Source of the DNA: Collinsella sp. An307
GTDB taxonomy: Bacteria > Actinomycetota > Coriobacteriia > Coriobacteriales > Coriobacteriaceae
NCBI RefSeq assembly: GCF_002161805.1
Contig: NZ_NFIP01000010.1
Location: 1 to 64,000 of the forward strand
Direction of reading: 5' to 3'
Length of the DNA stretch: 64,000 nt
Made by a program: the position numbers and the translations under genes. Every line of letters begins with the position of its first letter. The first letter of the stretch is position 1. The notes below the pieces were generated by a model. It searched no databases. It had not been told where the DNA came from and worked only from the letters and a program-made list of their open reading frames with translations. This document shows positions 323 to 64,000 of this stretch, piece after piece.

Positions 323-1394
323 GCGAGTCGAGCGTGGGCACAATCGATGCGAAGCGAGAAGAGGCGGATCGGCTTTGGAATCTGAGTTATGGCGCAAGGT
401 GCAGCAGGAAGATTATGAATCACAGATTGCGCGCACGTCGTGCACTGCGGAAGAGTTGCGATCTCTTCTGGACTGCGAAGCCTACTTTAACAGGCAGGGA
501 ATGCCAACGCCCGAAAGTAGCCAGACTATCATTCATTACCTAATCGACGAAGGCCTGGCTGTTGCCGAGGATGACGGCATGTTTGCGGTTACCAACATGG
601 GTGCCCTTCTATTCGCGCGTAACCTCGAAGAGTTTCCTGTGGTTATGCGCAAGGCGCCACGTGTTATTCAGTACGAGGGGCGCGGACGCATATCGATGCT
701 TCGGAGCAGGACGTTTGCCTCGGGATATGCCATCTGTTTAGATGAACTTGTCGATTACATCATGGCGCTCCTGCCGTCACGTGAGGTCATTGTGCACGCA
801 ACGCGAAGCACGCAAACACAACTACCTGCGCTGGCAGTTCGTGAGATTGTGGCAAACGCCCTCATCCATCAAGATTTTTCTATTACGGGAACCGGTCCGC
901 TGATTGAAGTATTTGCAGACAGGCTTGAGGTTACCAATGCGGGTGCGCCCCTTGTAGACGTTATGCGTATCGTGAACGATCCGCCGCGTGCTCGTAATGA
1001 GAAAACCGCTGCTCTTATGCGTCGTTTAGGTTTCTGTGAGGAGGCGGGCTCCGGTTGGGACAAGGTTGTTGAAGCGTGCGAGTATTACACCCTGCCCGCA
1101 CCACGCATCGAGACGCCGCAGGATAGCACGCGCGTAACATTGTTTGCGGCTATCGCATATCGCGCCCTTACGCCAGAGGAGCGCGAGCTTGCCTGTTATT
1201 GGCACACATGCATCTGTTATGCGAACCGTACGGCAGCGACTAACCAGTCTCTCAGGGCACGTTTTGGGTTGCCTTCATCGGCGTCTGCGCAGATTTCCCG
1301 TTTGATTCATACCTGTATTGACCGCGGGCTGATTCGCGCAGTGGACGCGGACGCGTCGAAGAAGAATAAGCGTTACGTGCCGGCTTGGGCTTGA
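282..1394 (+). pseudogene. 5'-truncated ATP-binding regulator of the AlbA_2/HATPase_c_4 (RecG-like) family
   Basis: From about 372 the frame matches the C-terminal two thirds of the putative DNA-binding proteins that have an N-terminal Schlafen AlbA_2 domain, a GHKL-like HATPase_c_4 domain and a C-terminal winged helix. Visible landmarks are NMGALLFARNLEEFP, REIVANALIHQDFSITG (ATP-binding helix with Asn), ADRLEVTNAG and RRLGFCEEAGSGWDKV. Full-length members carry about 160-200 further residues at the N-terminus with the AlbA_2 nucleic-acid-binding fold. These are absent here, and the sequence upstream is TATTTGCT iteron DNA. No ribosome binding site or credible start codon precedes the conserved part. 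Base composition is lower in GC than the neighbours. I read it as a remnant, although translation from an unusual start cannot be excluded. Confidence 0.65.
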
Positions 1395-1404
1395 GTGCCT
1401 CTCG

Positions 1405-1423
1405 TATTTGCTTGCTATTTGCT
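1405..1423. repeat. 11-bp iterons TATTTGCT, two copies downstream of the regulator (1405, 1416)
   Basis: Two more TATTTGCT octamers, 11 bp apart, begin 11 bp after the stop codon of the truncated regulator. They have the same orientation as the upstream arrays, so the gene is bracketed by direct iteron clusters. Confidence 0.75.
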
Positions 1424-1520
1424 CGACAGCGCAGGAAGCTCAGGTCCGACGGTGTACTTATATATAGTGCAGAGGCTCCTTCACGGTGAGCGCTCCTGGC
1501 GGCGCGATGCAGAAGGTGCT

Positions 1521-2859
1521 GGTAACGTACAATTTCTTGCGCACTTTGACAGCGGAATAGCGTCCGGATAGGAAGGGGGGCACTGCCCGCCCCGGTATGA
1601 TTCGAGTTGTCGAGACAGGAAACATGCTGGAGGCAGGCCATGTCCGGGCCCATCGTGACATTGAACGAGGATTCGCTGAAGACTGATCTGCGCGAGCTGG
1701 TGAGGAGGACCGTCGAGGACACCCTGAACGGCCTTCTCGAGGAGGAGGCGGGGGACCTCGTCGGCGCCGAGCGGTACGAGCGCGCCGCCGGGCGCGAGGT
1801 GTACCGCTCCGGCCACTACGAGCGCAGCCTGGCCACGTCGTCCGGCGAGGTAACGATCCATATGCCCAAGCTCAAGGGCATGAGGTTCACCGCGGCGATC
1901 ATCGAGCGCTACCGGCGCCGCGAGGCGAGCGTCGAGGAGGCCATGATCGAGATGTGCCTCGCCGGGGTCTCGACCCGCAGGATAGAGGACGTCTCCGAGA
2001 TCCTCTGGGGCTCCAGCGTCTCGGCTGCCACCGTCTCGAACCTCAACGAGAAGGCGTTCGCCTCGGTCGAGGAGCGGCGCAACCGCCCCCTCGAGCGCGC
2101 CTACCCCTACGCCTGCGTCGACGGGATCTACCTCAAGCGCAGCTGGGGCGGGAGCTATGAGAACGTGGCCGTGATGGTCGCCATCGGCGTCAACGACGAC
2201 GGCTACCGCGAGGTCATAGGCGCCGCCGAGGGGTTCACCGAGTCCTCGGGGTGCTGGCGGGAGCTCCTGTCGTGGCTGAAGTCCAGGGGGCTCCGCGGCG
2301 TGCGCGGGTTCACCGGCGACAGGGCCGCCGGCATGGTGGGGTCCATCGCCGAGGTCTTCCCCGGCGCCGCCCACCGGCGCCGCGCCGTGCACTTCTACCG
2401 CGACGTTCTCGCCGGGGTGCCCAAATCCGGGCGATCCGGGGTCGCGGCCATGCTCAGGGCGATCCGCGCCATGGAGTCCCGCGAGGCCGCCGAGGCCAAG
2501 GTGCTGGAGGTGGCCGCCGGCCCCGGCGGCATGAAGCTCGGGGAGGCCGCCAAGGCCGTGAGGGACGGCTACGCGGAGACCCTGGCCTACACGAGGTTCC
2601 CGCGCGAGCACTGGCGGCGCGTACGCACCGACAACGCAATAGAGCGCCTGAACCGCGAGATCCGCCGCAGGACGAGGGTGGTGGGCACCTTTCCCGACGG
2701 CAACTCGGCCCTCATGCCCGTGACCGCCAGGCTCAAGTACGTGGCCGAGAGCGAGTGGGGTTCGAGGCGCTACCTGGACGTGACTCTGCTGGAGGGGTAG
2801 CCGCACCGGACGGCGGGCCTATGGGCTGCCGGAAAGTGCGCAAGATTCTTGACGGTACC
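1521..2859 (+). mobile_element. Complete IS256-family insertion sequence
   Basis: A single transposase gene is bounded by imperfect terminal inverted repeats. The left end (1521-1547) and the reverse complement of the right end (2833-2859) share GGTA at the tip and a 13-bp identical core, TCTTGCGCACTTT. The element is about 1.34 kb, normal for IS256 relatives. A 7-bp GATGCAG occurs just outside both ends (1506-1512 and 2863-2869) and might be a target duplication, but it is not symmetrically placed, so I do not rely on it. Confidence 0.8.
1640..2800 (+). CDS. IS256-family (mutator-like) transposase
   Basis: This enzyme would cut and paste the element that encodes it through an RNase H-like DDE catalytic domain. 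The start chosen is the ATG at 1640 (386 residues), preceded by GGAGGCAGGCC. The first catalytic Asp is in YACVDGIYLK, the second in FTGDRAAGM, and the Glu in RTDNAIERLNREIRRRT, followed by the family signature VVGTFPDGNSAL. These are all three acidic residues of the IS256 type. The helical insertion motif normally ending RC-x-VHFYRN reads RRRAVHFYRDVL, so the usual Cys is Arg. Length matches active family members and no frameshift is visible. GC content is above that of the flanking regulator remnant. Confidence 0.9.
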   Translation: MSGPIVTLNEDSLKTDLRELVRRTVEDTLNGLLEEEAGDLVGAERYERAAGREVYRSGHYERSLATSSGEVTIHMPKLKGMRFTAAIIERYRRREASVEEAMIEMCLAGVSTRRIEDVSEILWGSSVSAATVSNLNEKAFASVEERRNRPLERAYPYACVDGIYLKRSWGGSYENVAVMVAIGVNDDGYREVIGAAEGFTESSGCWRELLSWLKSRGLRGVRGFTGDRAAGMVGSIAEVFPGAAHRRRAVHFYRDVLAGVPKSGRSGVAAMLRAIRAMESREAAEAKVLEVAAGPGGMKLGEAAKAVRDGYAETLAYTRFPREHWRRVRTDNAIERLNREIRRRTRVVGTFPDGNSALMPVTARLKYVAESEWGSRRYLDVTLLEG

Positions 2860-3055
2860 GTAGATGCAGCTCATGGTAAGAATCTCAGTGCAATTTGCAA
2901 GTAAGAAATCGGCCTAAAAATGACAACTTGCAATGCTGAATTAGGGGTGAAAAAGACACTTTGCAAAGATGGCCATGTGCGGTACTCCAACGTGCCTCAC
3001 GCGTGCAGAAAACGGGTACCCTGTAGGGAACAGTAGCTGGCTTGGGGGAGGAACC

Positions 3056-3772
3056 ATGGCAGAAGAGAAGCGCAACACGGTCGACGAGGCTGCGGTTGAG
3101 GTTAACGACGGCGACCGCACCGAGGAGAACGCCTCGCCCGAGCCCGAGATGGAGGATTTGCCCGCGCTCGTGCTGGGCGACGAGGCTGAGCACGATGCCG
3201 ACCTGCACGAGGAGGTCATCGACAGCGAGATTGCCTGGCGCGGCAAGATTTTTGACGTCGAGCGCCTGAACGTGCGCCTGCCCAACGGTCACACCTCGGT
3301 CCGCGACGTGGTGCGCCATCGCGGCGCGGCGGCCGTGGTTGCGCTTACCACCTCGGGTAAGATCGCGCTCGTGCGCCAGTACCGCACCTCGCTCGGCCGC
3401 GTGACGGTGGAGATCCCCGCCGGCAAGCTCGATTACCCCGGCGAGGACCCGCTCGAGTGCGCTAAGCGCGAGCTCAAGGAGGAGACCGGCTTTGTGGCCG
3501 GGCGCATTGCCTACCTCACCACCATTGCCACGAGCTGCGGATTTGCCGACGAGCTCATCCACATCTACCTGGCCACGCAGCTCTCATTTGAGGGGGCGCG
3601 CCCCGATGACGACGAGTTCCTCAACGTCGACCTGGTGCCGGTGGAGGAGCTGGTGGACGCCGTGCTCGACGGCAAGATCGAGGACGCCAAGACTGTGGTG
3701 GGCGCCCTTGCCTGCGAGGTCATGAGCCGCCGCTTGGCGGATGCCGCCGTGGCCGAGGAGGCCGCGGAGTAA
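3056..3772 (+). CDS. Nudix hydrolase, ADP-ribose pyrophosphatase-like
   Basis: The protein has 238 residues starting at the ATG at 3056, which follows the ribosome binding site GGGGGAGGAACC. The Nudix box at residues about 122-145 is complete: GKLDYPGEDPLECAKRELKE continuing into ETGF, with the RELKEE metal-binding core. The residues before it (GAAAVVALTTSGKIALVRQY) and the EIPAGKLD lead-in are those of ADP-ribose/NDP-sugar pyrophosphatases, which hydrolyse nucleoside diphosphate sugars in the cytoplasm. The first 55 residues are acidic and of low complexity and are probably a disordered extension. It stands alone, between the IS256 element and an ABC exporter. The exact substrate cannot be read from the sequence. 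Confidence 0.88.
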   Translation: MAEEKRNTVDEAAVEVNDGDRTEENASPEPEMEDLPALVLGDEAEHDADLHEEVIDSEIAWRGKIFDVERLNVRLPNGHTSVRDVVRHRGAAAVVALTTSGKIALVRQYRTSLGRVTVEIPAGKLDYPGEDPLECAKRELKEETGFVAGRIAYLTTIATSCGFADELIHIYLATQLSFEGARPDDDEFLNVDLVPVEELVDAVLDGKIEDAKTVVGALACEVMSRRLADAAVAEEAAE

Positions 3773-3801
3773 GCGCTCTCGAGCCGAAGGGGCGTGCGGT
3801 T

Positions 3802-3843
3802 TGTGATTCTCAGGCAACTGAATGTGATTTGGCGGCAACTAAA
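3802..3843. repeat. Two tandem 21-bp repeats TGTGATT-N4-GGCAACT
   Basis: TGTGATT followed after four bases by GGCAACT is present at 3802 and again at 3823, a spacing of two helical turns. The pair sits in the gap between the Nudix gene and the ABC exporter. It could be an operator; no regulator can be named. Confidence 0.4.
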
Positions 3844-4002
3844 ACCGTGCCGCAAGGGCGTTCTCGATAAACCATGCTGCAAGGGTTTGCGCGGCGCGGC
3901 CGGCGCTCGTCATGGCGTATACTAAGCGCCGGTTTGTGCGGCACCTTTTGCAGCGCGGACCTCGGCATCTTACATCTCAACCACGAAAGGCAGTGTCCTA
4001 CC

Positions 4003-5847
4003 GTGAGCACCGCTAGTACCACCTCGGCCGCTAACTCTTCGACCGCAACCGCGGCACCCAAGCACCGCAGCATGTTCCGTCGCTTTCTTGCCTACTACGG
4101 GCCGGAGCGCGGCCTCTTTATTGCCGACACCGTCTGCGCGCTGGTGATTGCCGGCATTGACCTTGCGTTCCCGAGCATTCTGCGCTCGCTCACGGGCGGC
4201 CTCTTTACCGAGGGGCGCGACGCCATTCTGGGCGCGCTGGGCATGATTGCCCTCGGTCTTGTGGTGCTCTACCTCGTGCGCATGGGCTGCCGCTACTTTG
4301 TGTCGGCGCAGGGCCACATCATGGGCGCGCGTATGGAGTCGCGCATGCGCGAGGACCTGTTTGACCAGTACGAGCGTTTTTGCTTTAGCTATTTTGACCG
4401 CGTGAACTCCGGCGACATGATGAGCCGCGTGGTCAACGACCTGTTTGACATTTGCGAGGCCGCTCACCACGTGCCGGAGTGGATCATCATCTGCGGCGTG
4501 GAGATTGTGGGCGCCTACGTGATCCTCTTTACCATCTCGCCCGTGCTCGCCGGCGTGATGGCGCTGGTGACCGTGGTCTTTGTGGCGATTATGGTGCGCC
4601 AGAACTTCCGCATGCGCGAGGTTTTTGCGGACAACCGTCGCAAGATCTCTGAGGTTAACTCGCAGCTGCAGGACTCGCTCTCGGGCATTCGCGTGGTCAA
4701 GTCCTTTGCGAACGAGGAGACCGAGCGCGCCAAGTTCCGTACCTCCAACGCGCGCTACCTCGACTCCAAGGTCAGCCAGTACCACGCCATGGGCGCATAC
4801 CAGGCAACAAGCGCGCTCATGACGGGCGCTCTCTTTACCATCATCGTGGTCTTGGGTGGCTACCTGGTGGCCCAGGGTCAGATGACCGCCGTCGACATGG
4901 CGACCTTTGCCCTCTACATCAGCCTCTTTACCACGCCGATCGAGACGCTCGTCAACTCGACCGAGACGGTGCAGAAGGCCATCGCGGGCTTTAAGCGCAT
5001 GGACGAGGTCATCCTGAGCATGCCCGACATTGTGGACGCGCCCGACGCGCGTCCGCTTGAGGTCACCGCGGGCGCCATTGCCTACCGCGACGTGTGCTTT
5101 AGCTACGACGACGCCGAGCTCACCGAGGACGGCGCCGACCGCATGCGCCCGGTGATCGACCACCTGTCGCTTGAGATTGCGCCCGGCGAGACCATTGCGC
5201 TTGTGGGTCCGTCCGGCGGCGGCAAGTCCACCACCTGCTCGCTGCTGCCGCGCTTCTACGACGTGGCCTCCGGCTCGATTAGCATCGACGGGCAGGACGT
5301 GCGCTCGGTCACGCAGGAGAGCCTGCGCCGTGCCATCGGCCTCGTACAGCAGGACGTCTACCTGTTTGACGGCACCCTGCGCGACAACATCGCCTACGGT
5401 CGCCCCGGCGCGACTCAGGCCGAGATCGAAGAGGCCGCGCGTCGCGCGAACATCCACGACTTCATCGCGAGTCTGCCCGAGGGGTACGACACCGTGGTGG
5501 GCGAGCGCGGCAGCCGTCTTTCTGGTGGCCAGAAGCAGCGCGTTGCCATCGCCCGCGTGTTCTTGAAGGACCCCAAGATCCTCATTCTGGACGAGGCGAC
5601 CTCGGCGCTTGATAACGAGAGCGAAGAGGCCGTGCAGGAGTCGCTCGAGCGGCTCGCGGCGGACCGCACGACGATCATCATCGCGCACCGCCTCTCGACC
5701 ATTAAGGGCGCCGACGAGATCGCCACGGTGGAGAACGGCCGCGTGGTTGAGCGCGGCACGCACGACGAGCTTCTGGCGCGCGGCGGCACCTACGCGCGCT
5801 ATTACCGCATGCAGTTTGAGGGCGCCCGCGCGCACGAGCTCGCGTAG
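4003..5847 (+). CDS. ABC exporter, fused membrane and ATPase domains (homodimer type)
   Basis: This is a 614-residue half-transporter with an N-terminal six-helix ABC_membrane domain (about residues 25-330) and a C-terminal nucleotide-binding domain (about 345-600). The ATPase motifs are canonical: Walker [12 protein letters not shown]-loop [10 protein letters not shown], signature RLSGGQKQR, Walker [13 protein letters not shown] and switch His in IIAHRLST. Because both signature and catalytic Glu are intact, it can work as a homodimer, unlike the two paired exporters further along the window. I chose the GTG at 4003, 12 bases after GAAAGG; an in-frame ATG at 3874 would add 43 unconserved residues. 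A TATACT hexamer near 3916 could be the -10 box. The substrate is unknown. Confidence 0.85.
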
Positions 5848-5978
5848 GGCGCGGCCCGTGGTGGGTGTGGGCTTGTGCCGCGATGCCGGCAGGGCCGGGC
5901 CCTGCATGAGGGCACGCGACGCTCTGCAGCTTGCATGGTGATTGTCGCAGCGTAGGCAGCGTGCCTGCGACGTATGCG

Positions 5979-5984
5979 TATAAT
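5979..5984 (+). promoter_or_regulatory. Candidate -10 box TATAAT
   Basis: A perfect TATAAT lies 65 bp before the start of the membrane protein gene at 6049. No convincing -35 hexamer stands at the expected distance. Confidence 0.4.
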
Positions 5985-6048
5985 GCCGATGCGGCAGGGC
6001 TTGCGCCCGGCCGCGCAAAGGAGATCACCCGCTGCCCAAGGTCGACGC

Positions 6049-6924
6049 ATGGCAAAGAAAACCCCGCTTACACCCGAGGAAGTCACCGAGCTCTTTGCGC
6101 AGCTCGATGATTCGGGCGTGCTCGACCCCGGCGGTCCGCACCGCAAGCGCACACGCCGCACCATCGACCCGCTCTCCGACGAGGACCCCTCCGGCTCCAA
6201 CGTCGACCACGCCATCTCGCGCGCGGCCATGGCGGTTATCATCGGCGTGCTTTTGCTCGTGCTGGGCATGCAGCTTTGGTACGGCATCAGCCGCCGCCTC
6301 AACACCGCAAATCTCTCCGACACCGCCAATGCTCAGACCGTAAGCCTCGCGCTTGAGGGCGGCGTGGAGTGGGGCAACGGCTTCACGCAGTTCCCGCACG
6401 ACTTCACGGTCGAGGAGGCCGACGAGCGCACGGGCATCGTGGAGGTGTCCGTGGTCGACACCGAATCCTCCAACGAGCTGGAGCTCTTCTCTAACAGCCA
6501 GATCCAAGCGGCCGCGCTTGCCACAAACGCGCTTTTGAACGACAACATCAACCAGGTGGTCTACAACGTGAGCGCGCGTCTCGACGAGGACGGCAACATC
6601 ACCTACGACCACCTCTTTGGCCTTCTGCCCGCACAGGGCGAGGAGGGCGTGATCTTTACGTTCGTGTGGACCAAGTATCGCTCCGGCGACTCGGCCAACA
6701 TCGACTGGGAGCTGCGCATCATCGGCATGGACGAGGATATTGCGGGCCGTATTCAGGAGCAGGTCAACTCCGTGTCGTCACTCATCGATACGCCGGGCAT
6801 TGACCAAGACGACTTCGACGCGCAGCGCAGCGAGCTTGACCTGGAGCGCGAACTTTTGGGCGGCGAGCAGTACCTGGGCGGCCCCGCCGAGAAGTATCCG
6901 GAGGACGTGCGACCGCAGGAGTAG
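6049..6924 (+). CDS. Single-pass membrane protein of unknown function
   Basis: The product has 291 residues. One transmembrane helix (AMAVIIGVLLLVLGMQLWYG, about residues 63-83) follows a polar, basic N-terminal segment, so most of the protein (residues 90-291) probably faces outward. I do not recognise the extracytoplasmic domain; it is acidic and contains no cysteine. The start is the ATG at 6049, with AAGG seven bases upstream; the stronger AAAGGAG at 6017 is too far away unless a non-AUG start is used. It follows the ABC exporter but has its own -10-like box, so it is probably expressed separately. Confidence 0.7.
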   Translation: MAKKTPLTPEEVTELFAQLDDSGVLDPGGPHRKRTRRTIDPLSDEDPSGSNVDHAISRAAMAVIIGVLLLVLGMQLWYGISRRLNTANLSDTANAQTVSLALEGGVEWGNGFTQFPHDFTVEEADERTGIVEVSVVDTESSNELELFSNSQIQAAALATNALLNDNINQVVYNVSARLDEDGNITYDHLFGLLPAQGEEGVIFTFVWTKYRSGDSANIDWELRIIGMDEDIAGRIQEQVNSVSSLIDTPGIDQDDFDAQRSELDLERELLGGEQYLGGPAEKYPEDVRPQE

Positions 6925-6961
6925 CCTTGCAATTAGAGCGAATTGCCGCTGGGACCTCCAG

Positions 6962-7111
6962 AAAACTCGCGTTGTAAGTGGCCATATCGGGAAGCGCTGA
7001 TTCCTCATTCCTAGGCTCACTATGAGAATCCGTGTTTCCCCAGTTGGGCGCTTTATTTAGATAAAGCATTAAGAAGAAAGCGGGAAGAGCCCACTTACTT
7101 GGCGATGTTTT
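6962..7111. repeat. 150-bp inverted-repeat element, copy 1
   Basis: Arms at 6962-6983 and 7089-7111 are complementary (AAAAC, TCGC and GTAAGTGG blocks). The core GTTTCCCCAG begins 72 bp from the left end, followed by a small palindromic CTTTATTTAGATAAAG. Total length and the +72 core offset equal those of the element at 8487-8636. It lies in the convergent gap between the membrane protein gene and the nuclease-fold gene. Confidence 0.7.
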
Positions 7112-7164
7112 GTGCCCTCCACTCCGGGATTGCGCCTTCGGGGGCGGCCCCAGCGCGGATCATG

Positions 7165-8232
7165 TTAAGGTTGACGCCATAGTTGGTTCCATGCGTGCAA
7201 TACCTGATACCTCAGCTCTCTTTCCTTTGCCGTTTGCCGGGCCGTTTTCGGTCGCAGTTTTACCCCTCTTTTCTTGGCAATGTATTGGATGAGCTCTTGG
7301 AACCGCTTCTGATTATTAATCTGCTGATACGTCACAAGAATCATGGGAAGCCCCGTCGACTCTAGCGCGAGCAGGCGGTCTGCATCGTGCTCCGTGATGC
7401 CGCCCGGGCCATGAACCGAGCGTCCCTGACACTCAATCCCCAGAGCAGGAAGAGAATCTGTTGTTTCAAGGAACAGGTCGACACGGGCGTAGCTCTGTCC
7501 AGCGATGGTCTGGGCGCCGGCGTCAAAGTGTACGGTTCGATTGAGGGACATTGGTCCTAGGCCCCAGCCGCCAAGATGTCGTCCCCAGCCAATTGTTATT
7601 GCCGCCTTCGCTTCGAAAGACGACCTGGCAACACCGCAAAGGAGCTCAACGGCTTGACGGAAGCGCCTGATGCCGCGCACATTTCCAACGGCATCGGCAA
7701 AGCGCTCCAGGTTTTCCTTGCTTGTAAGGGGTTCGCGATACCACTGGTCGGTAATATCGCCCTTAACGTCAATTACTGGCCTCCAGCCGTCTTCGCCGCG
7801 CCATCCAGTTTGGGACATACGCCTCTTCAGCTCATTACGATGCTCGGCGGTAAGGTGGATCTCCGAATAGGTTCCCGTAAGCTCATACATTGCGAGTGCA
7901 AGTTGCGGGAGGGGCAGATGCCTTGCGAGTTGAAGCAGCGTGAACTCTGGAGAAGTAACGGAATGGTATGCATCGATCTCGATAAGCGAACCGCTCGGCA
8001 GATCGCCTTTCCAAAGATGCCTGATGAATGCGGCGGACTGGTGCATGTGGGTTCTGTTGCATTCAAGGATGTGCAAGGGGACGCGCACGTAGCCAAGAAA
8101 CCTGTCGCGGCGGTAAAGGGACTGCCTGCCACGGCTCGTTGAGAGGTCCGGCGTGTCCAGCGAGAGGCGAAGCACGCAGGGCGGGATGCGAAGGAACTCA
8201 AAAGCCGATATGTCACAAAGAATCGTCTCCAT
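7165..8232 (-). CDS. Nuclease-fold protein (DUF559/Vsr-like C-terminus), degenerate active site
   Basis: The 355-residue protein is built like the gene product at 34423-35394: a start of the type METILCDISAFEFLRI, a central helical region containing a CGTY-like 'YELTGTYSEI', then a C-terminal segment resembling PD-(D/E)XK nucleases (ARVDLFLE, then LGIECQGR). In the paralogue the last motif is GIEYKGR; here the catalytic Lys is Gln, so cleavage activity is doubtful. I chose the ATG at 8232 because it aligns with the paralogue's start; an in-frame ATG at 8328 would add 32 residues. Neither start has a good ribosome binding site. The gene has a 150-bp inverted-repeat element on each side. Its role is unknown; an antitoxin/regulator or defence function is possible. 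Confidence 0.6.
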   Translation of the reverse strand: METILCDISAFEFLRIPPCVLRLSLDTPDLSTSRGRQSLYRRDRFLGYVRVPLHILECNRTHMHQSAAFIRHLWKGDLPSGSLIEIDAYHSVTSPEFTLLQLARHLPLPQLALAMYELTGTYSEIHLTAEHRNELKRRMSQTGWRGEDGWRPVIDVKGDITDQWYREPLTSKENLERFADAVGNVRGIRRFRQAVELLCGVARSSFEAKAAITIGWGRHLGGWGLGPMSLNRTVHFDAGAQTIAGQSYARVDLFLETTDSLPALGIECQGRSVHGPGGITEHDADRLLALESTGLPMILVTYQQINNQKRFQELIQYIAKKRGVKLRPKTARQTAKERELRYQVLHAWNQLWRQP

Positions 8233-8486
8233 GGCATTACGGTAAGAGAGAGAAGTGGGGTGGAGGGTAACAATCTCAGATTTCTGGTGCACGTTCTCAC
8301 CAATGTCTGACACGTTTCTGACTGGCAAGAGAAAACAGGCATATTTACCAGCGCATTTGACAAAACGGAGACGCCTTGTTAGCGAAACGAGGCCTGTTCA
8401 CAGATTGTTCGCATCTAACGTGGAGCATATTCAGAGCAGTGACGGAGAGTCTGCTGCGGGCCGGGTGCGGTTTGGTGACGGTTCGC

Positions 8487-8636
8487 AAAAAAATGCGATG
8501 TAAGTGGGCCCCTTCGACAAGGGATGAGTCAGTGAAGGACATACGGCCCCCATGTCGGGTTTTCCCAGTAAAAACCTTACCTAGATGGAGTATTCGATTC
8601 CATGACTGCCGGAGGCCACTTACATCGTGCATTTTT
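8487..8636. repeat. 150-bp inverted-repeat element, copy 2
   Basis: Arms at 8487-8510 and 8614-8636 pair almost perfectly (AAAAATGC..GATGTAAGTGG). The core GTTTTCCCAG starts exactly 72 bp from the left end, as in the 6962 copy, and is followed by CCTTACCTAGATGGAG. Apart from arm and core, the two copies have diverged. Confidence 0.75.
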
Positions 8637-8642
8637 GAGAGG

Positions 8643-8672
8643 GGGGGTGCCGCACGGCTGCGCGGCACCCCC
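8643..8672 (-). terminator. GC-rich hairpin after the pyridoxal kinase gene
   Basis: GGGGGTGCCGC and GCGGCACCCCC pair around a 6-8-base loop directly after the minus-strand kinase gene. No clear U-tract follows, so termination may be weak or factor-dependent. Confidence 0.45.
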
Positions 8673-8698
8673 GGCTTCAAGTGCGTGAGGCTGTTGGA

Positions 8699-9592
8699 TT
8701 AGCCCAGAAGCGCGGCGACCTTGCCCAGAAGTGGCTCGAAGCTGACGCCGCGGTCCTGGAACTGCGGCTGCTTGGAGGACACGATCATGGCGTCGTGCAC
8801 GAAGTCGCCGGCAAAGCGCACAGCCTCCTCCGTAGTGCGGCCAGCCATAACGGCGGCGAGCAGGCACGAGCAGTACAGGTCACCAGTGCCGTGCAGCATG
8901 TAGGGCAACAGCTCATTGTTGACCTCAAAGAACGATCCGTCCTGCGCGCCCACGAAGTTGCGGATAAGTCCGTCGCCGCGCTGGATGCCCTTGAGGACAA
9001 CTGTCTTGGTGCCCTTTGCAAGCAGCGCGTCGGTCAGGCGGTGCGCCTCGTCGTCGGTGATGTCCTCGCCGGCCCAGGCGTCCCCGATGGGCTCGCCCAG
9101 GATGATGGCGGCCTCAGTGAGGTTGGGCGTGAGGATGTCCGCGCCCTCAGCGAGCTTGGCCATGGCGTCGCAGAGCTCGGGGGTGTAGGTGGGGTAGACA
9201 CGGCCGTGGTCCGCCATAACGGGGTCGACCACGCGCAGCGCGGCAGGGTAGGTGGCGTAGAGGTCACGGATGCGGTCGACCTGCTCGGGCGCGCCGAGGA
9301 AGCCGGAGTAGATTGCGTCGATATCGACCCCGATACCCTTCCAAGCGGCGAGGTAATCGGAGAGGATTTCGGTCGTGTCGTGCATGTACCAGCCGGGGAA
9401 GGCGGTGTGCGACGAGAAGAGGCCGGTCGGGACCGGGCAGACGTCGCAGCCGGCGGCCGAGAGGACCGGGATGGCGACGCCAAGCGAGCACTTGCCGTAG
9501 CCGCACAGGTCGTGGACGGCGGCAACGCGCGGGATGTAGTCCCCTTCACGCTGGTAAAGGGGCTGTGTAGACATGCTGATTCCGTTGGACAT
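8699..9592 (-). CDS. pdxK: Pyridoxamine/pyridoxal kinase family protein
   Basis: This 297-residue ribokinase-superfamily enzyme resembles PdxK/PdxY kinases, which phosphorylate vitamin B6 vitamers with ATP in the cytoplasm. Visible motifs are AVHDLCGYGKCSL near the N-terminus, VVDPVMADHGRVY in the middle, ILTPNLTEAAIILG, and HGTGDLYCSCLLAA near the C-terminus, where GTGD supplies the anion hole and catalytic Asp. The start is the ATG at 9592, preceded on its strand by AAGGAAT; the longer open frame upstream is low-complexity and non-coding in appearance. A TATGCT at 9642-9647 (minus) may be the -10 box. The gene is divergent from carA. Which B6 vitamer is used cannot be told from sequence. 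Confidence 0.85.
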   Translation of the reverse strand: MSNGISMSTQPLYQREGDYIPRVAAVHDLCGYGKCSLGVAIPVLSAAGCDVCPVPTGLFSSHTAFPGWYMHDTTEILSDYLAAWKGIGVDIDAIYSGFLGAPEQVDRIRDLYATYPAALRVVDPVMADHGRVYPTYTPELCDAMAKLAEGADILTPNLTEAAIILGEPIGDAWAGEDITDDEAHRLTDALLAKGTKTVVLKGIQRGDGLIRNFVGAQDGSFFEVNNELLPYMLHGTGDLYCSCLLAAVMAGRTTEEAVRFAGDFVHDAMIVSSKQPQFQDRGVSFEPLLGKVAALLG

Positions 9593-9872
9593 GGATATTC
9601 CTTCTTTCATCCGCGGACTTATGGACCAGCGTACGGTTACCCAGCATAGTACGCGCGGGCGATTGGGCGGGCGCGCATTCACATCGAAACAGAGAGCGCA
9701 CATTGCGCGCGCTTCGCACCGAGTGCTTCGCACCAGGCGGGACGCGGCTACACCGCTTGCCACGGGCGTGCTTGCGACGGCGGCCGGCGCGCCGCCGAGC
9801 GCCTCGCGCCGGGCGGGGTGCGGAATTATCGCGGACAGGCCGCCCCAGCGGGCGCGCATGGCAGAAAACGCC

Positions 9873-9878
9873 TACAAT
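9873..9878 (+). promoter_or_regulatory. Candidate -10 box TACAAT for carAB
   Basis: TACAAT stands 55 bp before the carA start. No PyrR-type attenuator or obvious pyrimidine-responsive leader is visible in the short leader. Confidence 0.35.
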
Positions 9879-9933
9879 GAGGTGCAGCCCATCCACCTTT
9901 AAGCCGGTCCTGCGAGGCCGGGAAGGAGTGCAT

Positions 9934-11406
9934 ATGGCGGTTACAGACGTGTCGGGCGCGCAGGCCCGCACCTCCGGCGGCGACCGCGCCGTCCGCAGCG
10001 CAGCCTTAAGTGAGCTCGCGCAGCACATGCTTTCCAAAACCAGCAAAAAGTCGAGTGTTCCGGGCATTCTGATGCTCGCCGACGGCACGGTCTTTTACGG
10101 CCGCGCCTGCGGAGCTCAGGGCACGGCCACGGGCGAGGTCTGCTTCAACACCTCGCTCGAGGGGTACTTCGAGGTCCTCACCGACCCGAGCTACGCCGGC
10201 CAGATCGTGACCATGACCTACCCGCAGATCGGCAACTACGGCATCGACCCGGTCGACACCCAGACCGGCCTCGGCGCCGACGGCGACCCCACGCTCAACA
10301 CGCGCCCGGCGCTGCGCGGCATGATCGTGCACGACATGTGCCGCACGCCGTCCAACTGGCGCTCCACCGAGAGCGTGCCCGCCTACCTCGCCGAGCGTGG
10401 CATCGTGGCGCTCGAGGGCATCGACACGCGCGCGCTCGTGCGGCATCTGCGCGACAACGGCGCCCAGAAGGGCATCATCACCACGGAGGTCTTTGACCTC
10501 GAGGAGCTCGCGCGCCTGCTCGCGGAGGCTCCCGACCTGGTGGGCGAGAACCTCGTCAAGACCGTGAGTCGCACCGACCGCCGTTCCTACACCGCCGCTG
10601 ACCTGCCGGCCGACCACGCCTTTGCCTCCGCCGACCCGGTGCCGGCGCGCCACAAGGTCGTGGCCTACGACTGCGGCATCAAGCGCGGCATCCTCGAGGG
10701 CCTCGTCCGCGCCGGCTGCGACCTCACGCTCGTGCCGTGGGACACCCCCGCCGAGGACGTGCTCGCGCTCGAGCCCGACGGCGTCTTCCTCTCCAACGGC
10801 CCGGGCGACCCGGACGCCGTGGAGGAGACCTACACCCAGGTGCAGAAGCTCATTGGCAAGCTGCCGATTTTTGGCATCTGCCTGGGCCACCAGATGATCA
10901 GCCTCGCCTGCGGCGCGGATATGGAGAAGCTTAAGTTCGGCCACCGCGGCGGCAACCAACCGGTCATGAACTTGCTCACCCGCCGCGTGGAGATCACCGC
11001 CCAAAATCACGGCTTTGGCCTGGTGTTCCCGAGCCTCGGCGCGCTCGTGCCCGAGCTCTCGGGCGGCGTGGCCGAGCACCCCGCCGGCGCCGACGGCACC
11101 GCCGCCACCGGCGACTTGCGCTTCTGGGTGGAGCGCGGGGTTGCGCCGGTCGTGCAGAACGAGCGCTTCGGCCGCATCCGTCTCACGCACGTGAACTTGA
11201 ACGACGGCACCGCCGAGGGCATCCAGCTACTCGACCAGCCGTGCTTCTCGGTCCAGTACCACCCCGAGGCCTCGCCCGGCCCCACCGACGCCCACTACCT
11301 GTTCACGGCGTTCGCGCGCCTCATGGACGGTGACGCCGATTACCTCAACATCGATATCTCGAAAGACCGCCTCGCGGGGTGGAAGTTCGCAGAGGAGGAG
11401 ATGTAG
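9934..11406 (+). CDS. carA: Carbamoyl-phosphate synthase small (glutaminase) subunit
   Basis: CarA hydrolyses glutamine and channels ammonia to CarB for carbamoyl phosphate, the entry to pyrimidine and arginine synthesis. The 490-residue product has the CPSase small-subunit domain (GILMLADGTVFYG through the region near residue 195) and a class I glutamine amidotransferase domain with the nucleophile in GICLGHQM and the catalytic His/Glu in YHPEASPGP. The ATG at 9934 has GGAAGGAG seven bases upstream. It adds about 47 residues before the usual start of the domain; ATGs at MLSKTSKK or MLADG are alternatives without a comparable ribosome binding site. The stop is three bases before carB, so the two are one operon. 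Confidence 0.95.
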   Translation: MAVTDVSGAQARTSGGDRAVRSAALSELAQHMLSKTSKKSSVPGILMLADGTVFYGRACGAQGTATGEVCFNTSLEGYFEVLTDPSYAGQIVTMTYPQIGNYGIDPVDTQTGLGADGDPTLNTRPALRGMIVHDMCRTPSNWRSTESVPAYLAERGIVALEGIDTRALVRHLRDNGAQKGIITTEVFDLEELARLLAEAPDLVGENLVKTVSRTDRRSYTAADLPADHAFASADPVPARHKVVAYDCGIKRGILEGLVRAGCDLTLVPWDTPAEDVLALEPDGVFLSNGPGDPDAVEETYTQVQKLIGKLPIFGICLGHQMISLACGADMEKLKFGHRGGNQPVMNLLTRRVEITAQNHGFGLVFPSLGALVPELSGGVAEHPAGADGTAATGDLRFWVERGVAPVVQNERFGRIRLTHVNLNDGTAEGIQLLDQPCFSVQYHPEASPGPTDAHYLFTAFARLMDGDADYLNIDISKDRLAGWKFAEEEM

Positions 11407-15264: not shown

Positions 15265-15320
15265 GTTTCGTTTTCCGAGGGCTTCGTTGATCATTTTCCG
15301 AACTTTCCGTTTTCCGAATC
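15265..15320. repeat. TTTTCCGA repeat cluster, downstream copy
   Basis: TTTTCCGA occurs at 15271, 15294 and 15310. The whole stretch is a direct, same-orientation copy of the cluster at 16700-16764 (shared GTTTNCGTTTTCCGAG, TTCATTTTCCGAACTTT-like and CGTTTTCCGAAT blocks), with a 7-bp deletion between the last two octamers. Confidence 0.7.
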
Positions 15321-15334
15321 TCCGCTCAACACCG

Positions 15335-16654
15335 CTACGCCGTTAAACAGCGGATGGGAATGACGTAGATGTTTTCGTCAACTTGTCGGGCATATTGAGA
15401 AAAGCCCGTAATGACCGCCATAAACTCCGGCTCGCGCGTGCGCGCAGCGTCGCCGCGGCAGAGTTTCCGCTGCAGGCGTCGCAGGGAGTTCACGGCATCG
15501 TCCACCTTGTCTTCGCTGAGCTCGATCTCCAGCGCCGCCCACCGACCGTCGGCGAGCTCGATGATGGCGTCGACCTCCAAACCGGCGTCGTCGCGGTAAT
15601 AACGCACAGGCTCAAACCCGATGTTGGGAAGTGCCCCGGCATACACGAGCAGGTCGCGCATGCACAGGTTCTCAAAAGCCAAGCCCAACGTTTGGTAATC
15701 GCGCATGAGTGCCTGCGGATCCATGCCAAGCTGCGCCACAGCGAGCGATGGGTCGGCTAGGTAGCGCTTTGGCTTGGTGGCCATGCGTTTGCGGGAGCGG
15801 GTAGCGGGGACCCACCCCGGAATCTCGTCAATAAGATACGAGTTCTTAAAGAACGCGAGGTAGTCCGAGATGGTGGCAAGACTCGCAAGAGCCTCGCCCG
15901 TTTTGTCAGCGAGGGAATCGGGCTCACTCATGTCGGCAACAAGGGTTTTGCGTGTCACGGCCTGGCCAAGGTTACAGGCTAGAGAATAGATGAGCAGGCG
16001 GGCGACGTTTCCATCGCGGCCGGACTGCGGGACGCTCTCCGTGCAAAAAAGCTGGAGGTACTGCCGGGCAATCAGCTGTGCCTGCGCGGTATCGAGGTCG
16101 AGCGCTTCGGGCCATCCGCCGTGGCAGATGATATTGATGAGCTCCTGCGAGTCGTCGGGGACAACGGCTGGGGAGAACTCGCCGTTAAACAGCGCAGAAA
16201 GAGAGACGCTCTTTGTGGAATTGGAGATTTCGGAAAGCGTCATGGGGTGCATGCGGATGCGCCCGATGCGCCCGGCACCGCTGTGAAGCGGTTGGGGGTC
16301 TTCGACCCGGCGCAAAAACGGAGTGGAGGAGCCGGTGAGAATCCACCCGCCGCGGAGGTTGCGGGTGCGGTCGATGGATCGGCGGACGGCATTCCAGATT
16401 GCAGGGACGAGCTGCCATTCGTCGATGGCATGCGGCTGCTCACCTAGAGTGACGAGGTAGGGGTCGCTGCTCGCAAGCGCGTAATCGTCGTCGATGTAGC
16501 TGACGCTTTGGGCGTGCGCAAGGGCAGTCCAGGTTTTGCCGCACCATTTAGTGCCGGCAATCTCCACGGCGCCAAACACAGAGAGATAGCGCTCAACCTG
16601 TGTATCGGCGATACGCGGAATGTAGCCCTCTGGAGTGAGTGGGGATGCCGCCAT
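15335..16654 (-). CDS. AAA_14/DUF4143 family ATP-binding protein
   Basis: The 439-residue protein starts at the ATG at 16654 with the strong upstream site AGGAGG. It has the layout of the AAA_14-DUF4143 family: an N-terminal P-loop ATPase (Walker A-like GTKWCGKTWTAL at about residues 33-44, Walker B HAIDEWQL at about 76-83), then a DUF4143 domain ending in a restriction-endonuclease-like segment (LEVDAIIELADGRWAALEIE at about residues 355-375). Family members are widespread in gut bacteria; their biochemical role is not established. A short TTTTCCGA repeat cluster lies both upstream (16700-16764) and directly after the stop codon, which suggests autoregulatory binding sites or a mobile cassette. 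Confidence 0.8.
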   Translation of the reverse strand: MAASPLTPEGYIPRIADTQVERYLSVFGAVEIAGTKWCGKTWTALAHAQSVSYIDDDYALASSDPYLVTLGEQPHAIDEWQLVPAIWNAVRRSIDRTRNLRGGWILTGSSTPFLRRVEDPQPLHSGAGRIGRIRMHPMTLSEISNSTKSVSLSALFNGEFSPAVVPDDSQELINIICHGGWPEALDLDTAQAQLIARQYLQLFCTESVPQSGRDGNVARLLIYSLACNLGQAVTRKTLVADMSEPDSLADKTGEALASLATISDYLAFFKNSYLIDEIPGWVPATRSRKRMATKPKRYLADPSLAVAQLGMDPQALMRDYQTLGLAFENLCMRDLLVYAGALPNIGFEPVRYYRDDAGLEVDAIIELADGRWAALEIELSEDKVDDAVNSLRRLQRKLCRGDAARTREPEFMAVITGFSQYARQVDENIYVIPIRCLTA

Positions 16655-16699
16655 AAAAACCTCCTGAGATTGGCTACTCTAGCTGGAATTATAGAAGCA

Positions 16700-16764
16700 G
16701 TTTACGTTTTCCGAGAGTTTCATTATTCATTTTCCGAACTTTTCGTTTGACGTTTTCCGAATTT
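16700..16764. repeat. TTTTCCGA repeat cluster, upstream copy
   Basis: TTTTCCGA begins at 16707, 16730 and 16753, a constant 23-bp spacing of about two helical turns. The cluster sits in the promoter region of the minus-strand ATPase gene, 46 bp from its start codon, and has a direct partner at 15265-15320. Confidence 0.75.
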
Positions 16765-61135: not shown

Positions 61136-62317
61136 ATGGGCACGACAGAACAAATGGTTGGACAGAACGCGGGGCAGGTCACAGCGCCGGAACAGCCGCA
61201 AAAAGAGGTCTGGACCATCGAGCGCTGCCTCAGGTGGTCCACGGGCTATCTTGAGCGCCATGGCGAGGAGCGTCCGCGCCTGGCGGCTGAGTGGTTGATC
61301 TGCGCCGCGGCGCATCGTAAGCGCATCGACCTCTATCTCAATTTTGATCAGCCCTTGTCCGAGGCCGAGCTTGCTGCGGTCCGCAATGGCTTGAAGCGCC
61401 GTGCGGCGGGGGAGCCTCTGCAGTACATCACGGGCGAAACCTCATTCCGCCAGCTCGACGTCCTCTGCGAGCCTGGCGTGCTCATCCCGCGTCCCGAGAC
61501 GGAGCTGCTGGTTGACTTTGTGCTCGAGTACCTCGACCACGCGGTTCTTACCGGCGGGTCGTCCGTCGCGCGTCGCGAGCGTGTTGAGCTTCCCTGGAAC
61601 GCCGAGGTTGCCCAAGCGCGCGAGCAAGAGCTCGCCGCTCTTGCCGCAAAGGCGCAAAGCGATGACGAGGCGACGGAGGCGGAGGAGGACGCTGCGGACG
61701 GTGTAGCGACGCCGGACGAGGCGGCCCCTGCTGATACCACGGCTGGCGAAGGCGATTTCGAGGCGTCGGATCCTGAGCCCGTAGCACCGCCGGTTGCGCA
61801 TGTGCTTGAGGTGGGGTGCGGCACCGGTTGCATCTCGCTCTCGCTTGCTGCCGAGAGGCCGGGCGCAGTTCGCTGCGTTGCCACCGATATCGAGCCGCGT
61901 GCTGTCGCGCTCGCGCACCGCAACCGCGAGCGCGCCGGTCTTGCGGGTGACGCCGTTGATATTCGTGAGGGCGATTTGGTTTCGCCTGTTCACGCTGAGG
62001 AGTACGGCGCCTTTGACGTGCTCGTTTCGAACCCGCCCTATGTGCCGACCAAGGTGGTAGATACGCTCCCGCGGGAGGTGGCCGCCTTTGAGCCGCACCT
62101 CGCGCTCGACGGTGGAGCGGACGGGCTCGATATCTTCCGGCGCCTGCTCGACGTTGCACCGGCTTTGCTCAAGCCGGGAGCGCTGTTTGCCGTCGAGCTA
62201 TTCGAGACCGCCACAGAGCCCGCTGCGGAGCTCTGCCGCGCCGCCGGATTCACCGACGTGCGCGTTGCCTCCGATATGACGGGAAGGCCCCGCTTCGTGC
62301 TCGCGCATTGCGCCTAA
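61136..62317 (+). CDS. prmC: Release factor glutamine methyltransferase
   Basis: PrmC methylates the GGQ glutamine of RF1 and RF2 using SAM. The 393-residue protein has the N-terminal helical domain (ERCLRWSTGYLERHG, QYITGETSFRQLDV, VLIPRPETELLVD) and the Rossmann domain with HVLEVGCGTGCISLSL and VSNPPYVP, the glutamine-binding NPPY. An acidic Ala/Glu/Asp-rich insertion of about 75 residues (about 145-220) separates the two, where ordinary PrmC has a short linker. The start is ATG 61136 behind GAGGGGAAGCC. Its last 41 bp recur at 63214-63254, beyond the HicA/HicB genes. Confidence 0.93.
   Translation: MGTTEQMVGQNAGQVTAPEQPQKEVWTIERCLRWSTGYLERHGEERPRLAAEWLICAAAHRKRIDLYLNFDQPLSEAELAAVRNGLKRRAAGEPLQYITGETSFRQLDVLCEPGVLIPRPETELLVDFVLEYLDHAVLTGGSSVARRERVELPWNAEVAQAREQELAALAAKAQSDDEATEAEEDAADGVATPDEAAPADTTAGEGDFEASDPEPVAPPVAHVLEVGCGTGCISLSLAAERPGAVRCVATDIEPRAVALAHRNRERAGLAGDAVDIREGDLVSPVHAEEYGAFDVLVSNPPYVPTKVVDTLPREVAAFEPHLALDGGADGLDIFRRLLDVAPALLKPGALFAVELFETATEPAAELCRAAGFTDVRVASDMTGRPRFVLAHCA
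62276..62316 (+). repeat. 41-bp direct repeat, left copy (3' end of prmC)
   Basis: ATGACGGGAAGGCCCCGCTT and the following 21 bp, up to CGCCTA, match 63214-63254 at 39 of 41 positions. This copy encodes the last residues of PrmC. Confidence 0.9.
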
Positions 62318-62444
62318 GGTAAGGCGGGTTTCAACGCAACGCGTTTGGTACGGACTTAAAGCGACGCCGTTCGTTGATGTGGAAAAACAGAGCCTTTCAT
62401 TCAAAGCCTTTTCGGAAGGTGCGCTATTGCCGCACTCATAGAGC

Positions 62445-62459
62445 CTTAGCAATGCTAAG
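62445..62459. promoter_or_regulatory. Palindrome CTTAGC-AAT-GCTAAG, likely HicB operator
   Basis: A perfect 6-bp inverted repeat overlaps a TAAGAT -10-like hexamer 15 bp before hicA. DNA-binding HicB antitoxins usually autoregulate through such sites. Confidence 0.5.
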
Positions 62460-62473
62460 ATAGAGGTGACATT

Positions 62474-62695
62474 ATGACGAAGCGCCGGGATTTGATTCGA
62501 GAGCTTCTATCCGCCGGATGGGTAATGGGGCACGGAGGCAAACACGACTACTTCCGCAAGGGGTCAGGAAGAGTGACGATGCCGCGTCATGGTGAGATTA
62601 GCGATGCGCTGGCGGATAGGATTCGGAAACAGGCGGGGCTGGTCGTTCGACGTCCCTTGGACGCGAAGCGCAAGAGGGGAGAGACTCGTGAATAA
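62474..62695 (+). CDS. hicA: HicA-family mRNA interferase toxin
   Basis: The 73-residue basic protein follows the HicA pattern: RDLIRELLSAGW, then GHGGKHDYFRKG with the catalytic His (about residue 24), then VTMPRHGEISDALADRIRKQ. HicA toxins use a double-stranded RNA-binding-like fold to cleave mRNA. GAGGTGAC precedes ATG 62474. The stop overlaps the GTG start of hicB, giving the coupled toxin-antitoxin order typical of hicAB. Confidence 0.85.
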   Translation: MTKRRDLIRELLSAGWVMGHGGKHDYFRKGSGRVTMPRHGEISDALADRIRKQAGLVVRRPLDAKRKRGETRE

Positions 62696-63206
62696 CGGAA
62701 TGTCTTCGCAAGAACATGCGGGAAACGAATGGGAAGAAGTGTTCGTTAGAGAATTCGAGGTGTTTGTCGACGAAGGAATCTTTGTCGCGCTCCCTTGCGA
62801 TATGGAAGGCGGAACTCAAGGGACCAGTTTTAATGATGCGGTTTATATGGCAGCAGACTGGTTGAGGGACGCGGCGCTAGCTTCGTTGGCAAAAGGCAAG
62901 GCACTGCCCGGAGGGGCATTGGGGCATGTGCCGCAATATGGCGGAAGAGTAATTGCGGTTGCTGTTCTTGCGGGGCGTGATGATATCCCTGCTATGACTG
63001 CCGCCGATGCCGCGCGGGCGCTGAACGTGAGCACAGCACGTGTGGCGCAGCTCTGCAAGGCGGGTAAGTTAGACTCCTGGCGTGTGGGGGCGACGCGAAT
63101 GGTCTCGAAGGAAAGTGTCGAGATGCGCAAAATACTGGCGCAACGGGAGGAGGCGCTGGGGGAGCGATCACGCGCCTCGCATGTTGGCTTGGCGGCGGCG
63201 GGATAG
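62688..63206 (+). CDS. hicB: HicB-family antitoxin with C-terminal DNA-binding domain
   Basis: The 172-residue protein likely starts at GTG 62688 (AGAGGGGAGA upstream, overlapping hicA) or ATG 62700. The first part (EFEVFVDEGIFVALPCDMEGGTQGTSFNDAVYMAADWL) has the partial RNase H fold of HicB. The C-terminal part (TAADAARALNVSTARVAQLC...LDSWRVGATRMV) is an excisionase/MerR-like helix-turn-helix. It should neutralise HicA and repress the operon. It is longer than minimal HicB because of the added DNA-binding domain. Confidence 0.82.
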   Translation: MNNGMSSQEHAGNEWEEVFVREFEVFVDEGIFVALPCDMEGGTQGTSFNDAVYMAADWLRDAALASLAKGKALPGGALGHVPQYGGRVIAVAVLAGRDDIPAMTAADAARALNVSTARVAQLCKAGKLDSWRVGATRMVSKESVEMRKILAQREEALGERSRASHVGLAAAG

Positions 63207-63213
63207 AAGCTAA

Positions 63214-63254
63214 ATGACGGGAAGGCCCCGCTTCGTGCTTGCGCATCGCGCCTA
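63214..63254 (+). repeat. 41-bp direct repeat, right copy (duplicated prmC 3' end)
   Basis: This matches 62276-62316 at 39 of 41 bases, including the terminal CGCCTA. It lies seven bases after the hicB stop. The intervening 62317-63213 holds only hicA/hicB and their promoter. Confidence 0.9.
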
Positions 63255-63423
63255 GCCAGAGCCTCGACAACTTAACCCCGACCGTGAGCGGTCGGGCGAC
63301 ACATTTCCTACGCATCTTCTCCTTTTGCCGAGCCACGCGGCCCGTTGGCGTGCGTTATTGACAATGTGTCCCTATGTCACCGTCTCCCGTGCGACAATAC
63401 TGCGCAAAACGTCAGCAGGAGTA

Positions 63424-63483: not shown

Positions 63484-64000
63484 ATGACCCAGGTGTTCCG
63501 CACCGCAGCAGATGAGGGCCTAACTGAGTCCGCAGCAATCGCGCAGGCGGCGCGCGTCCTCATGGCGGGCGGGCTCGCACTCATCCCTACGGAAACCGTG
63601 TACGGTCTTGCCGTAGCGGTGTCCGCATTCACCTGTCCCTCCGCGGACGCAGCGGAGCCCTTGGTTAACGGTTGCCCCGTGCCCGCCGAGGGGTCCGGCT
63701 ATCGTCGCATCTTCGACCTCAAGCAACGCGACCTCGCGCAGACCGTGCCTTGGCTCGTAGATGGCGCAGGTGCCCTTGAGCGCTATGGGCACGACGTCGA
63801 CCCCGGCGTGCAGGCGCTCGCCCGCGCGTTCTGGCCGGGCGCCCTCACCCTTATCGTCCCGGCGCGTGATGACGTGCCCGCGTTTATGCGCGCGGCAGAC
63901 GGAACAGTTGCGCTGCGCTCGTCGGCCTCTCCGGTGGTGGCCGCGCTCATCGAGGCTTGCGGCAGCCCGCTTGCCTGCACGAGCGCAAATACCCACGGCG
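63484..64000 (+). CDS. tsaC: L-threonylcarbamoyladenylate synthase (TsaC/Sua5/YrdC), 3' end beyond the window
   Basis: TsaC condenses threonine, bicarbonate and ATP to threonylcarbamoyl-AMP for t6A37 in tRNA. The 172 visible residues start at ATG 63484 and remain open to the window edge. GLALIPTETVYGLAVAV is the diagnostic PTETVYGL strand, FDLKQRDLAQ gives the KxR motif, FWPGALTLIVPA is typical, and CTSANTHG is the SAN motif. An unusual short insertion (CPSADAAEPLVNGCPVPAEG) separates the first strands from KxR. prfA-prmC-tsaC is a common bacterial neighbourhood; here hicAB separates the last two. Confidence 0.9.
   Translation, partial: MTQVFRTAADEGLTESAAIAQAARVLMAGGLALIPTETVYGLAVAVSAFTCPSADAAEPLVNGCPVPAEGSGYRRIFDLKQRDLAQTVPWLVDGAGALERYGHDVDPGVQALARAFWPGALTLIVPARDDVPAFMRAADGTVALRSSASPVVAALIEACGSPLACTSANTHG

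Follow-up and report, generated by a model that had tools for sequence, protein, structure and literature searches.

A hicAB toxin-antitoxin insertion at the 3' end of prmC in Collinsella sp. An307, resolved to its junctions

Introduction

How did a toxin-antitoxin (TA) pair come to lie between prmC and tsaC in Collinsella sp. An307, with prmC intact in front of it and a second copy of the last bases of prmC behind it? One section of a review on type II TA systems describes the movement and integration of such modules as unelucidated, and their insertion loci as plastic (PMC7167474). At the locus studied here, the junctions of a TA insertion can be read to the base, two relatives show the empty site, and the differences between the repeat copies form a mosaic that can be polarised. 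In addition, TA modules have been gained, exchanged and stacked across the family in the gap that holds the insertion, a natural series on which the mechanism can be tested.

The prmC-tsaC locus and its repeat

The window, i.e. the whole stretch of 64,000 nucleotides analysed here, is situated on a 96.6-kb contig of an assembly of 2.2 Mb in 17 contigs. The gene order at the locus is prfA-prmC-hicA-hicB-tsaC, with prfA read from its ORF. prmC (61136..62317, plus strand), encoding the peptide-chain-release-factor glutamine methyltransferase, carries PF17827 and methyltransferase domains, is intact and ends with ..CAT TGC GCC TAA, the TAA stop being at 62317. tsaC, a member of the Sua5/YciO/YrdC family (PF01300), starts on the same strand at about 63484 and runs off the window (63484..64000).

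By employing a repeat search with scores of +1 for a match and -2 for a mismatch, we found that the last 41 bp of prmC (62276-62316) recur behind hicB at 63214-63254, with 39/41 identity and a start-to-start distance of 938 bp. This reproduces the coordinates of the first-pass annotation of this DNA, which had described the repeat and a 938-bp unit carrying the TA pair, and which had also stated that prmC was left whole (its reading frame and stop are preserved) and that no integrase was present (there is none among the ORFs of the unit). The pair has the second-highest score (35) of the window's repeats with a spacing of 100-10,000 bp. When the window was resampled 10 times under a first-order Markov model, the top-scoring pairs reached 14-17, which rules out a chance origin. 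Neither 41-mer shows secondary structure beyond that of shuffles (z -0.44 and -0.39). Between the proximal, attL-like copy (62276..62316, plus strand) and the distal one lie 897 bp of inserted DNA (62317..63213), making up a unit of 938 bp when one repeat copy is counted. The G+C content of the insert is 56.3%, compared to 63.0% for the window, and its non-coding portion of about 157 bp has 48% G+C.

The HicA/HicB module

Both TA reading frames are intact and on the plus strand. The hicA toxin gene (62474..62695) encodes 73 aa that match Pfam family PF07927 above the cut-off (E 1.9e-9), including a conserved His24 that is invariant in 6/6 aligned sequences. Its downstream partner (62688..63206), of 172 aa when read from a GTG whose choice as start is uncertain, is tentatively assigned as HicB on the basis of its position and a weak N-terminal match of its own family profile to the solved HicB 5yrz (E 0.003 over 38 profile positions). 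As to the partial RNase H fold expected of HicB, no HicB Pfam family was matched by the window protein or by any of 10 aligned members, and a single-sequence AlphaFold2 model of the protein was poor (pLDDT 44.5). At its C-terminus, an HTH_17 domain was identified that also matches the excisionase-family model, below the cut-off. A DNA-binding domain of this HTH_17/excisionase type is found in 10/10 aligned members of the protein's family.

HicAB modules are type II TA systems according to PMC11594946, and the window pair resembles them in its predicted catalytic-type histidine in HicA, its toxin-first two-gene operon and its putative DNA-binding antitoxin. As far as the corresponding sections of two papers go, the DNA-binding domains of HicB are of the HTH (Xre-type) or RHH kind (PMC11594946, PMC2701414), whereas the C-terminus of the window protein is HTH_17/excisionase-like, i.e. 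neither Xre nor RHH but a further flavour. Just upstream of hicA, the palindrome CTTAGCAATGCTAAG (62445..62459) is a probable HicB operator, as predicted from TTAGCA..TGCTAA-like motifs that precede the related hicA genes of L013 and L016, and from a diverged form in L020.

Empty sites within the genus

In all of the other genomes of the genus (8/8), prmC and tsaC are adjacent without an insert, with a match-to-match gap of 212-409 bp. The junction could be read base by base in two of these, while the remaining six show the absence of the insert. The two, L003 and L004, are close congeners, their prmC genes being 94% and 93% identical to that of the window at the nucleotide level, and both have an empty site with a single repeat copy followed by the same prmC-tsaC spacer. 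The junction reads ..CTCGCGCACCGCGCCTAG|CCAGAGCC.. in both, i.e. prmC runs straight into the spacer. In the window, this empty-site context stands behind the distal, attR-like copy (63214..63254, plus strand), which is followed by the native TAG and spacer. By this comparison, it is the distal copy that represents the original end of prmC, and the last bases of the present prmC arrived with the insert. Since the congeners have empty sites, the gain amounts to 897 bp and one copy of the repeat, and the TAA stop is not ancestral.

The claim that the TA pair had entered at the 3' end of prmC is consequently supported, both by the eight insert-free congeners and by the two resolved junctions, and relatives with prmC directly followed by tsaC and a single copy of the repeat, which the first-pass annotation had proposed to look for, do exist. 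Its description of prmC as whole stands as regards the frame, with the addition that the native end is the distal copy and that the proximal prmC has a new tail. We also considered the second copy as a conserved regulatory element and rejected this, as its only good matches family-wide are to prmC's own end in congeners. A hairpin, CCCGACCGTGAGCGGTCGGG (63277..63296, plus strand), follows the distal copy and occurs in a longer form behind prmC in the empty sites. It is a probable operon terminator, and since the spacer with this hairpin is conserved, hicAB would now lie between prmC and the terminator.

The gap across family and order

The survey of the family covered 64 genomes, including that of the window, which have both prmC and tsaC. 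The gap measures 60-496 bp in 39 of them, exactly 918 bp in 12, 980-981 bp in six and 1169-2129 bp in another six (the window among these), while the two genes are apart in one (G037). A HicB-type match behind prmC was found in all 12 genomes of the 918-bp group and in G023. Full reading of two members of the 918-bp group, L030 and L034, showed a hicA-hicB pair unlike that of the window. Of the 980-bp group, four of six loci were fetched, with matching flanks in three; both genomes listed for ORFs have a toxin-HTH_3 pair, and the toxin is of the Gp49 family in L066, the one with proteins scanned. In G023, hicB is followed by a related toxin/HTH pair, with no hicA seen. The gap of G027 holds a HigB-like toxin, an HTH_3 partner and an aminotransferase-like ORF; G050 has an HTH_3 gene together with an ORF of the latter kind, and G029 and G039 have the aminotransferase alone (the enzyme scanned was that of G029). 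In another genus, the gap is occupied by a hicAB unlike that of the window, by Gp49 with an HTH partner and by HigB with an HTH partner.

No repeat of the prmC end was found around a cassette in the 16 prmC-tsaC stretches fetched; the longest repetitions among them were, in G050, the two prmC paralogues and a tandemly repeated stretch and, in G037, a 47-nt sequence whose copies are 36 bp apart. A repeat like that of the window was likewise absent from the 28 other loci with a HicB-type match that were scanned. By its gene content, the gap is a place where toxin-antitoxin modules have settled repeatedly in the family, which is a new observation; the repeat, absent from the other loci scanned, is special to the window insertion. 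Outside the family, but within the order, prmC and tsaC were adjacent in 35 of 45 genomes among the matches listed (of 217), with gaps of 34-296 bp, and were not adjacent in 10.

Some details of these loci may be added. The last prmC codons differ from the empty allele in L065, L067 and L071 of the 980-bp group (CAGCGTATTTAA vs CAGCGTCAGTAA), and the cassettes of the other genus would thus also change the prmC end. In L070 (G023), the word CAATAACCCC(C)TC was seen by eye on both sides of the second toxin/HTH pair. In L061 (G050; 1257-11238), about 8.7 kb separate two complete, diverged prmC genes. A fucosidase-like ORF and IS21-like and IS3-like transposase ORFs were recognized between them by eye; the G050 genome is listed with 6% contamination.

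Mosaic of the copies and mode of entry

Within the repeat, the copies disagree at positions 27 and 34; a third difference, at position 42, lies just outside it. Four in-register outgroups (G006, G007, G003 and G001) were used for polarising these differences; G002, G004 and G005, which are out of register and have differing prmC ends, were not used, and G008 was left out. The ancestral state is C at position 27 (proximal C, distal T), C at position 34 (proximal T, distal C) and G at position 42 (proximal A, distal G). Polarised in this way, the differences form a reciprocal mosaic, the proximal copy being ancestral on the left and derived on the right, and the distal copy the reverse.

A single crossover between positions 27 and 34 with a gene end borne by the incoming element would explain this mosaic without later mutations. 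In the scenario that we favor, a DNA circle of about 938 bp, or one that was longer and has since shrunk, would have carried hicAB together with its own last ~41 bp of prmC. One reciprocal recombination between the circle and the chromosomal prmC end would then have taken place within the 6-nt interval GCGCAT (repeat positions 28-33; 62303..62308, plus strand), whereby prmC would have received a new but equivalent 3' end, and its native end would have been pushed behind hicB. A likely agent would be a site-specific integrase, acting in trans or since lost, while HicA and HicB with their own operator may hold the unit in place by addiction. The polarised mosaic predicts both the 938-bp circle and a crossover within GCGCAT. 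Because the repeat matches the synonymous codons of the subclade, the element's copy must in this case stem from a close relative.

The resemblance to att-site integration that was suggested from the sequence at first thus gains from the mosaic, but no integrase was found and the case is not proven. Since the integrase is hypothetical, the mosaic comprises two sites within the repeat, and the repeat is identical to the codons of the host clade, we give att-type integration of a circle by reciprocal crossover about an even chance, hold an additive insertion possible, and consider integration by RecA unlikely. In the additive or illegitimate case, a linear hicAB fragment would have been joined into prmC with a duplication of 41 bp of the target, and each copy would later have acquired one point mutation; the event would be a long target-site duplication, or would combine a homologous side in prmC with an illegitimate joint upstream of it. 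Such an insertion requires no integrase, and it accounts for the agreement of the repeat with the host gene down to the codons, as well as for position 33, where both copies have a T as opposed to C in the two nearest outgroups (G006 and G007). This shared T mildly favors a local origin of both copies. In another genus, furthermore, cassettes in the prmC-tsaC gap abut the prmC stop without repeats, which makes a prmC-hicAB donor conceivable. On the other hand, the insert has no transposase and no inverted-repeat pair joining its ends, and by our own estimate only about 1/4 of cases would give the two mismatches the left/right order seen, a fraction that makes the support of the mosaic for a crossover modest. 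That the gap repeatedly takes TA cassettes in the family was counted in favor of the att-type circle, and the lack of a comparable repeat at the 28 other loci and around the other cassettes of the gap was counted against it.

The same reciprocal mosaic would result from an integrase-free, Campbell-type integration by RecA of a circularized fragment that carried 41 bp from the end of a relative's prmC; however, a mismatched homology of 41 bp is close to the shortest that RecA usually exchanges efficiently, or falls short of it. Import of hicAB by homologous recombination from a neighboring genus, g3, which has a HicB-type gene behind prmC in 13 genomes, is barely credible, as the g3 HicB proteins match weakly and partly (about 35-42% over 48-79 residues, and 28% over a longer stretch in L030), their HicA and operator differ, and the scanned loci have no repeat.

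Returning to the att-type circle, we searched for a mover, an island or a donor. The proposed remnant of a larger island found no support: in 63/64 family genomes, prmC and tsaC are separated by no more than 2.1 kb, the larger of these gaps that were read showed no integrase, and no parent ICE/IME was found at the site in the 64 genomes. At the seven tyrosine recombinase loci of the genome, no core-like sequence scored above shuffled cores. A scan of genome contigs gave one relative of HicB, in Collinsella sp. An7 (52%), which by its coordinates appears to be genome G002 of the genus; none was found in viral contigs, plasmids and phages. The single match of the repeat core in viral contigs lies on the opposite strand of a replication/primase-like ORF in a short contig and was read as chance. 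A speculative extension, which we regard as a long shot, is that the TA pair might move as a tiny circle, i.e. a 0.9-kb gene-end cassette with the 3' end of a host gene as its attachment site, a borrowed integrase, and the excisionase-like domain of HicB serving as operator repressor and recombination directionality factor.

Comparison with known elements

The locus is a junction-resolved TA insertion of a known general kind. A CIME, as introduced in a passage of PMC5704250, is an element without integration and transfer genes that has kept attL and attR; the window unit similarly lacks an integrase and has its cargo between two target-gene ends, of which one copy restores the gene, but it is only 0.9 kb long and holds a TA pair only, with no parent ICE/IME or integrase seen at the site. 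An excerpt of PMC8409611 describes integrative islands that target protein-coding genes at the 3' end, such as SGI1 in trmE. Like these, the insert targets and restores a gene 3' end, and unlike these, it has no integrase, excisionase or transfer genes. The section on plastic intergenic loci in PMC7167474 lists ccd in folA-apaH, and mazEF and parDE in relA-mazG, where, as here, an accessory TA pair lies between conserved genes, relatives are empty and different TA families occur per gap, whereas in the window the junctions are resolved and 41 bp from the end of the upstream gene are duplicated. In the literature searched, we found no report of prmC as an integration site; we do not claim that none has been published.

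Other repeats in the window

Two further repeats in the window deserve mention. A 44-nt imperfect direct repeat of GTTTTCCGA motifs (15269-15312 and 16705-16748) flanks a minus-strand ORF of 439 aa (15335-16654), whose product we take, by eye, to be an ATP-binding protein of the AAA_14/DUF4143 kind. This repeat-flanked ORF (15269-16748) is possibly another small gene cassette. The other, a 130-nt imperfect direct repeat at 24220 with a spacing of 582, is rich in GATCC/GACCC units and probably represents intragenic Pro/Asp repeats.
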